DNA of 64,000 bases from Solibacillus sp. FSL H8-0538 (GTDB lineage: Bacteria > Bacillota > Bacilli > Bacillales_A > Planococcaceae): NCBI RefSeq assembly GCF_038003525.1, contig NZ_JBBOPI010000001.1, positions 487,001-551,000 of the forward strand, given 5' to 3'. Both the position numbers and the translations under genes were made by a program. Below are positions 8,680 through 55,166 of this stretch, piece after piece. Position 1 is the stretch's first letter. Every line of letters begins with the position of its first letter. The notes under the pieces are model-generated. The model did not search any database and was not told the origin of the DNA. It saw only the letters and a list, made by a program, of their open reading frames with translations.

Positions 8680-8793
8680 ACCACTCTTATCTTTCAAAAC
8701 ATTTCTGTTTTGTAGGAATTAGCACCGGCCAACAAGTGTTGGTGGTTGCCGAGCTTCATAGGGCCTATCCCTCAGCTACTCTTAATAAGAGAA
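8680..8793 (-). promoter_or_regulatory. SAM-I riboswitch (S-box leader) controlling metQ-metN-metI-oxidase
   Basis: The minus strand shows the S-box landmarks in order: P1 strand CTCTTATTAAGAG, then GCTGAGGGATAGGCCC, ATGAAGCTCGGCAACC, a variable P3 arm, GGTGCTAATTCC, and the closing P1 strand GATAAGAGTGG. These match the SAM-I aptamer core, including the kink-turn and the AUGAA-CCGGCAACC type segment. High SAM should allow the downstream terminator to form and switch the operon off. Confidence 0.95.
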
Positions 8794-26623: not shown

Positions 26624-26668
26624 CGCAAAAAAGCCCTCTACAAAAAGAGACTACTCTTTTTGTAGAGG
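26624..26668 (-). terminator. Attenuator terminator of the trp T-box
   Basis: Minus strand CCTCTACAAAAAGAG pairs with CTCTTTTTGTAGAGG, followed by GCTTTTTT. It overlaps the antiterminator region of the T-box. Confidence 0.92.
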
Positions 26669-26860
26669 ACGATATATGACCGCGTTGCCACCTCAATTGA
26701 AGCCTAAGCTTCCACTTCATGTCCTTGTAACGGCAGGAAACCGTCCACTAACTAGCGCTAGCGGCTTTCATAAGGCCCATTCACAAAGATTACACAGACG
26801 CGTTTGCACCAACCACGCGCTCTCTAAGCAGGTTATCATTTGCTACTCTTCTTATTCATC
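26624..26860 (-). promoter_or_regulatory. Tryptophan-specific T-box riboswitch upstream of trpE
   Basis: On the minus strand, Stem I contains AGAGAGCGCGTGGTTGGTG. The specifier loop reads GTGAATGGGCC, giving UGG (Trp) at 26777-26779. The conserved T-box GAGGTGGCAACGCGGT at about 26680-26694 closes it before the terminator. Uncharged tRNA(Trp) should stabilise the antiterminator and turn on the whole operon, including the second trpB. Only one T-box is seen, not the tandem arrangement known from some Bacillus species. Confidence 0.95.
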
Positions 26861-26951
26861 AATTTACTCAGCTATACTATTCTCAGCTCTGTCTAGACGG
26901 TGGTCACGCTCCCGTGACCTGCTACCGTATCCGAACAATATTAATATTCAA

Positions 26952-27535: not shown

Positions 27536-27544
27536 TCTTCTATT

Positions 27545-27585
27545 CCTCCTAGTTTTTTTTACGTGGGATGGTTACGAACCACGGT
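27545..27585 (-). promoter_or_regulatory. PreQ1-I riboswitch overlapping the queT ribosome binding site
   Basis: Minus strand reads CGTGGTTCGTAACCATCCC, ACG, then TAAAAAAAACTAGGAGG. This is the compact H-type pseudoknot aptamer: hairpin, CCATCCC loop, A-rich strand and CTAGG. The last bases form the AGGAGG ribosome site 10 bp before the ATG, so ligand binding should block translation of queT. Confidence 0.92.
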
Positions 27586-27663
27586 GTGTTAAACACAAAT
27601 ACCTATATTAATATAGTACAATCTATTCGTCAAATAATGCGGTTAATTGTTGTTGTTAGAAAA

Positions 27664-54750: not shown

Positions 54751-54852
54751 TTTAAAAGTAAAGAAATTCTTACACAGTCAACAAATTTTGTTAAATAAAC
54801 CTAAAAATACGTGAACAAACTGTGACATTTCTTCTAAGCAACTAATAGGTAG

Positions 54853-54881
54853 TTGAAAGTGCTTACGAAAAAAAGTACACT
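54853..54881 (+). promoter_or_regulatory. Promoter of the candidate small RNA, with cre-like overlap
   Basis: TTGAAA, exactly 17 bp, TACACT. TGAAAGTGCTTACG at 54854-54867 is one base from the cre-like site seen at gntP and overlaps the -35 box, so carbon control is possible. Confidence 0.55.
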
Positions 54882-54887
54882 TGAACT

Positions 54888-55038
54888 ACAGCTTGCATGT
54901 AGTAAGCTAGGACACATGGGAAACGACAGTGATGAGAGCTATGCGGCATTTGACCCTTCCCAAGCCGAATGCCCCATGATTCTCATCCTTCGCGTACCAT
55001 AATAGAAAAGCTCTTTCGTCTTACGGACTTGTGCCGGA
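54888..55038 (+). ncRNA. Candidate trans-acting small RNA (about 150 nt), unassigned
   Basis: A gap of about 415 bp between ywhD and the convergent pbpG contains, in order: a promoter; a short hairpin AGCTT/AAGCT (54891-54909); a long hairpin ATGAGA...GGCATT (54932-54950) paired with AATGCC...TCTCAT (54968-54986); and a terminator AAGCTCTTTCGTC / GACGAAAGAGCTTTTTT (about 55006-55038). The long hairpin's loop presents CCCTTCCC (54954-54961). A C-rich accessible loop is typical of Gram-positive sRNAs that block ribosome binding sites. CATGGG (54915) could pair alternatively with CCCATG (54973). A 28-codon ORF (54916-55002) overlaps but lacks a ribosome site. I do not match it to any known RNA family. 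Confidence 0.55.
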
Positions 55039-55057
55039 GACGAAAGAGCTTTTTTAA

Positions 55058-55137
55058 TAGATAAGAAAGTATAACTTTCTTATCTACATAAGTAAGGACA
55101 GCATCTCGCCCTAAATATGTTGAGATACGTCTTACTA
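55058..55137. repeat. Dispersed repeat A8
   Basis: A full copy with an almost perfect hairpin 1 (GATAAGAAAGTATAAC/TTTCTTATC) and a decayed hairpin 2 (CATCTCGCCCTAAATATGTT). It sits directly behind the T-run of the candidate sRNA terminator. Confidence 0.82.
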
Positions 55138-55166
55138 GGTTTCAGTTCGAAAGCGATGTAGACAAC

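Follow-up and report, generated by a model that had tools for sequence, protein, structure and literature searches.

What is encoded in the gap between ywhD and pbpG (positions 54751-55166 of the window, by which we mean the whole stretch of 64,000 nucleotides analysed here)? The gap is flanked by ywhD on the plus strand, whose product matches Pfam YwhD, and by a gene for a pbpG-type penicillin-binding protein on the minus strand. A first-pass annotation had proposed that it holds an undescribed small RNA with its own promoter and terminator. In order, the gap contains a sigma-A-type promoter, a 5′ hairpin, a predicted single-stranded AGGACA, a long rod and a strong terminator (Table 1). Because the flanking genes are convergent, the element does not lie upstream of a co-oriented gene as a cis-acting riboswitch or leader would. 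Elsewhere in the window, an ordinary T-box, a SAM riboswitch and a preQ1 riboswitch are found at 26662-26868, 8684-8791 and 27543-27588, respectively, all on the minus strand.

Table 1. Features of the ywhD-pbpG gap, in window positions.
Feature	Position	Strand	Details
ResD-like box TGAACAAACTGTGACATTT	54812-54830	+	11-bp repeat TGA-N8-TGA, centred at about -68
Promoter TTGAAA-17-TACACT	54853-54881	+	-35 at 54853-54858, -10 at 54876-54881
Small RNA transcript (predicted)	54888-55055	+	From conservation, covariation and folding; 5′ end 54888 ± 1, 3′ end in the T-run
5′ hairpin AGCUUGC/GUAAGCU	54890-54908	+	98% of cells paired; compensatory changes in 3 of 6 pairs
Invariant CUAGGACA	54907-54914	+	Found in 73 or more of 77 distinct homologues; AGGACA part unpaired in the predicted fold
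Long rod hairpin	54916-55000	+	Folding z -5.4; the two lower helices show compensatory changes
Apical loop UGACCCUUCCCAAGCCG	54951-54967	+	C-rich; conserved core (A/U)CCCAAGC at 54958-54965
Intrinsic terminator hairpin and U-tract	55003-55056	+	Folding z -8.7; present in nearly all relatives

The promoter described by the first-pass annotation (TTGAAA, a 17-nt spacer and TACACT) is present in all its parts. Taken alone it does not exceed chance, as four promoter-like sites were observed against 3.1 expected from shuffled sequences. It is convincing because of its position and its conservation, with TTGAA and GTAMACT kept in relatives.

A blastn-type search identified homologues in 18 of 61 relatives, and across Planococcaceae (Caryophanaceae) they were present in 166 of 261 genomes from 14 genera. 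Carriers that could be named are Lysinibacillus, Metalysinibacillus, Ureibacillus, Viridibacillus, Planococcus, Planomicrobium and Sporosarcina. A search with a promoter-plus-hairpin pattern gave matches in 167 of the 261 family genomes, one per genome, and the reversed control gave almost none; the pattern adds two genera (g4 and g13), and genera g2, g5 and g16 are without a match. At every locus with enough flanking sequence the RNA adjoins ywhD, and its other neighbour is usually pbpG. With covariance models R1 and R2 and strict filters, the RNA was not found outside the family in 398 genomes of the class. Exact pattern matches in Bacillus DNRA2, Terribacillus, Heyndrickxia and Paenibacillus were dismissed as chance because the promoter and ywhD are both absent there. 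No Rfam family scored above its gathering cut-off in the gap, and a permissive scan returned chance matches only, nearly all of them to microRNA models on the terminator.

The fold of the predicted RNA (about 168 nt, rather than the 150 nt or so first suggested) was examined in a structure-blind alignment of 52 distinct sequences. In this alignment 94.7% of cells are paired and 12 of 27 pairs show compensatory changes. Changes on both sides of a pair affect these 12 pairs and 82 cells, compared with 6.4 and 24.4 in shuffles (none of 500 equalled the observed values), and controls with slid partners gave at most 8 pairs and at most 24 cells. The covarying parts are the 5′ hairpin, the rod base and the middle helix of the rod, the helices of the rod being AUGG/CCAU at its base, then GAUGAGA/UCUCAUC and then AUGCGGCAUU/AAUGCCCCAU. 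The 171-nt segment 54888-55058 has a folding energy of -72.7 kcal/mol (z -8.3), which none of 200 shuffles matched, and the fold without the terminator has a z of -4.4. A simple terminator scanner missed the hairpin at 55003-55056, probably owing to its 8-nt loop maximum. An alternative fold through CATGGG/CCCATG had also been put forward; both segments are present (54915-54920 and 54973-54978), but the CATGGG side is not kept in relatives. A kissing interaction between CAAGC of the loop and GCUUG of the 5′ arm was likewise discarded, as the arms vary and the loop does not follow (L088, L014).

A short peptide was also considered. The 49-aa TTG frame at 54853-55002 shows no conservation, and among 97 homologues 69 lack any stop-free reading frame through the RNA body, so the element is no conserved coding gene. 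The locus combines its own promoter and terminator with a conserved fold and no conserved reading frame, features of trans-acting, base-pairing small RNAs in general. Conservation in relatives with compensating base changes, on which the first-pass annotation had staked its proposal, was found, at one conserved locus and with no Rfam match. We conclude that this small RNA family is real, hitherto uncatalogued and specific to Planococcaceae, its transcription being predicted from sequence.

We next consider which parts of the RNA are constant. The CCCAAG of the apical loop occurs in at least 67 of 77 distinct homologues, in the forms ACCCAAGC or UCCCAAGC. The first-pass annotation had the loop expose CCCTTCCC; this stretch does lie inside the apical loop (54954-54961), but it is found in only one of the 77 homologues, the present sequence, and the conserved loop is (A/U)CCCAAGC instead, so that CCCTTCCC does not hold up as a general anti-Shine-Dalgarno seed. 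Metalysinibacillus-type versions (L017, L018, L165, L174) retain the promoter, the 5′ hairpin and CUAGGACA and have a different rod, with the loop CUGGACC in L017, L018 and L165. In the Sporosarcina-type L099 and L226 only a tiny GGGUUCGCCC-like hairpin is left of the rod, and their ResD-like box is weak too; the Sporosarcina version with the shrunken rod still has the 5′ hairpin and AGGACA. In two members of genus g8 (L070 and L074), a hairpin-rich repeat has apparently inserted exactly in the apical loop, between conserved stem arms. Because Metalysinibacillus and one Sporosarcina have lost or altered the loop motif, the seed may not reside in the loop. The loop and rod vary in some lineages while the 5′ hairpin and AGGACA stay, making the 5′ module the most constant part.

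Among the known small RNAs that come closest is RoxS/RsaE (RF01820): it has a trans-type gene, C-rich unpaired stretches and a 3′ terminator, and a ResD/SrrA-type box lies about 66 nt upstream of the RoxS start, compared with about -68 here. The two RNAs are nevertheless unrelated in sequence and fold and lie at different loci of the same genomes. At a permissive threshold the RF01820 covariance model had no match in the gap and matched elsewhere (G000:C1:786142), so homology to RoxS was rejected. RoxS also has a Rex site, GTGAAATnnATCACA, at its start, whereas no TTGTGAA-type palindrome is found at 54876-54900, although one is present at the organism's own roxS. RoxS/RsaE was present in all 25 family genomes checked (here at G000:C1:786142-786254), in many of them just under the Rfam gathering score (77.5 against 79 bits here), and annotation would therefore miss it. 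CsfG, another Bacillales small RNA, has CU-rich loops. It is located between ylbG and ylbH under the control of sigma F/G (PMC3574147, PMC8216469). This RNA is always beside ywhD, and identity with CsfG was rejected on that ground. FsrA and SR1 are of similar size and trans-acting in Bacillus, as we propose for the present RNA; SR1 encodes a peptide too. FsrA is under Fur control and contains three C-rich regions (PMC4409812). Both differ from the present RNA in that the gap has no Rfam match.

What might control this RNA? An almost invariant box, TGAACAAAnTGTGACA (written TTGAACAAAnTGTGACA across 97 distinct promoters), is located 39-42 nt upstream of the -35 element in nearly all of these promoters. 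A weight matrix was built from the small RNA promoter boxes only and served as an independent probe elsewhere. With it, 17 of 18 family genomes showed ATGAACAATTTGTGAAAT-type sites upstream of ctaA (about 13-23 bits, sequence ATGAACAnTTTGTGAA or close, empirical p 0.0015-0.014 each; Mann-Whitney p 2e-12), and roxS upstream regions scored above background, mostly at -66/-67 (p 2e-6), p values that overstate independence as the homologues are related. The roxS box is related, not identical (TGACAA rather than TGAACAA), and in a Staphylococcus-like rsaE upstream sequence the box lies at the same 31-nt distance from a TTGAAA -35. A box of the ResD/SrrA type upstream of the promoter, a trait of RoxS/RsaE, is thus recognisable here by sequence, with the same matrix matching roxS and ctaA.

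The genome carries resBCDE together with ctaA/ctaBCDEFG. In Bacillus subtilis ctaA is activated by ResD (PMC4348106), a link also made in the title of Zhang and Hulett 2000, as it appears among the references of PMC5596917, and roxS is activated by ResD via a site near -65 (PMC4409812). Since ctaA has this box and roxS a related one, and both genes are ResD targets, the promoter evidence, through shared motif and position, points to ResDE (oxygen, nitric oxide or respiration) as the most likely control. A link to carbon status through CcpA had been suggested from a cre-like sequence overlapping the -35; this match has two mismatches here and mostly three to five in relatives, equivalent to random DNA, and is not conserved. 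A strong ResD-like box match was also noted in the ctaF-ctaG gap at G000:C1:916710. Two paralogous genes for proteins of about 40 aa (MWVITIFEQDSVRMFEY...), at G000:C1:482391 (L244) and G000:C1:1422394 (L256), each have ResD-like TTGAACGATTTGTGAA boxes and Rex-like palindromes upstream; the one paralogue scanned had no Pfam match. Matches from a loose genome scan with TTGAN6TGTGAM lay mostly in coding sequence, and this approach was abandoned.

Seed matches in 1399 start regions (from 1.64 Mb, about 42% of the genome) were no better than chance. The only striking one was UGUCCUA in resD; it occupies codons 5-8 here and is absent in 23 relatives, and resD was rejected as a target. Joint pairing energies for 391 ortholog pairs shared with a second genome did not surpass those after permutation, the best joint energy being worse than the permuted mean.

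The RNA is followed by a repeat that the first-pass annotation had assigned to its family A. This is indeed a dispersed repeat, of about 85 bp at 55055-55140, with a perfect 13-bp inverted repeat TAGATAAGAAAGT/ACTTTCTTATCTA and 59 matches in the genome (about 40 distinct copies at 80-100% identity). It is MITE- or REP-like and is no part of the small RNA.

The presence in the gap of this repeat, which has at least 40 genomic copies, might suggest that the element is a portion of it, or a set of chance hairpins without function. We give this next to no credence, since the repeat lies outside the RNA, past its terminator, and conservation at one locus across the family (166 of 261 genomes) together with covariation refutes chance hairpins. 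A different possibility is that the element chiefly serves ywhD as its 3′ untranslated region and terminator, with the rod and terminator stabilising or ending the ywhD mRNA and any distinct RNA arising as a by-product. The element is invariably found after ywhD and on its strand, the box of several genera starts about 15-20 nt past the ywhD stop with no other terminator between, and read-through from ywhD would yield a processed form. However, a conserved promoter and upstream activator box lie inside the gap, the 5′ hairpin begins directly after the predicted start site, and termination needs neither the invariant AGGACA nor the loop motif, leaving this explanation distinctly unlikely.

An RNA that binds a protein, for example as a CsrA-like decoy or as a ligand of RNA polymerase or an RNase, would account for CUAGGACA as a recognition element: it is steadier than the loop, it includes GGA, and no conserved complementary target was found. 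Typical CsrA sites, however, need GGA in a hairpin loop, and here the one invariant GGA is outside any hairpin loop. The C-rich loop is likewise retained in most genera, and neither 6S nor any other Rfam family matches, so that we regard protein binding as rather improbable, though a serious competitor. It is also unlikely, though slightly less so, that a box-sharing regulator other than ResDE acts here, or that there is no regulation at all. The link to ResDE is drawn from the motif, and CcpA had been proposed earlier; against this, known ResD targets share the box (ctaA) or have a related one (roxS), and relatives do not keep the cre-like match.

We consider it probable, by a fair measure, that the gap encodes an RNA specific to Planococcaceae, about 168 nt long and served by a promoter and terminator of its own, activated by ResD and pairing with mRNAs beside RoxS. 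In this model, limited respiration or nitric oxide would lead ResE to phosphorylate ResD, which would bind the TGAACAAAnTGTGACA box at about -68 and activate the small RNA, as with roxS. Transcription would start at the RNA's own promoter within the ywhD-pbpG gap and stop at the intrinsic terminator, and the 5′ hairpin may shield the RNA end. By analogy with RoxS, the single-stranded AGGACA, the apical loop (A/U)CCCAAGC or both would pair with mRNAs and alter their translation or stability, so that the small RNA, alongside RoxS, would help to fit metabolism to the respiratory state. More tentatively, and somewhat doubtfully, this second, family-wide and RoxS-unrelated ResDE-activated RNA might share out the low-oxygen/nitric-oxide response with RoxS and act mainly via the invariant 5′ hairpin plus AGGACA; if true, such a mode, by pairing or protein binding, would be undescribed for the C-rich small RNAs of Firmicutes.

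Returning to the model of an mRNA-pairing RNA beside RoxS, the control site is one common to oxygen-respiration genes, and the RNA therefore probably helps cells adjust to oxygen shortage. It is conserved in most of a family of soil bacteria, including Lysinibacillus, Sporosarcina and Planococcus, where small RNAs have hardly been explored. The gene, its promoter box and candidate seeds are now concrete, and the alignment could found an Rfam family. RoxS/RsaE has so far been the model ResDE/SrrAB-controlled small RNA of Firmicutes; a second, unrelated ResDE small RNA, if true, would mean that the regulon recruits lineage-specific RNAs.
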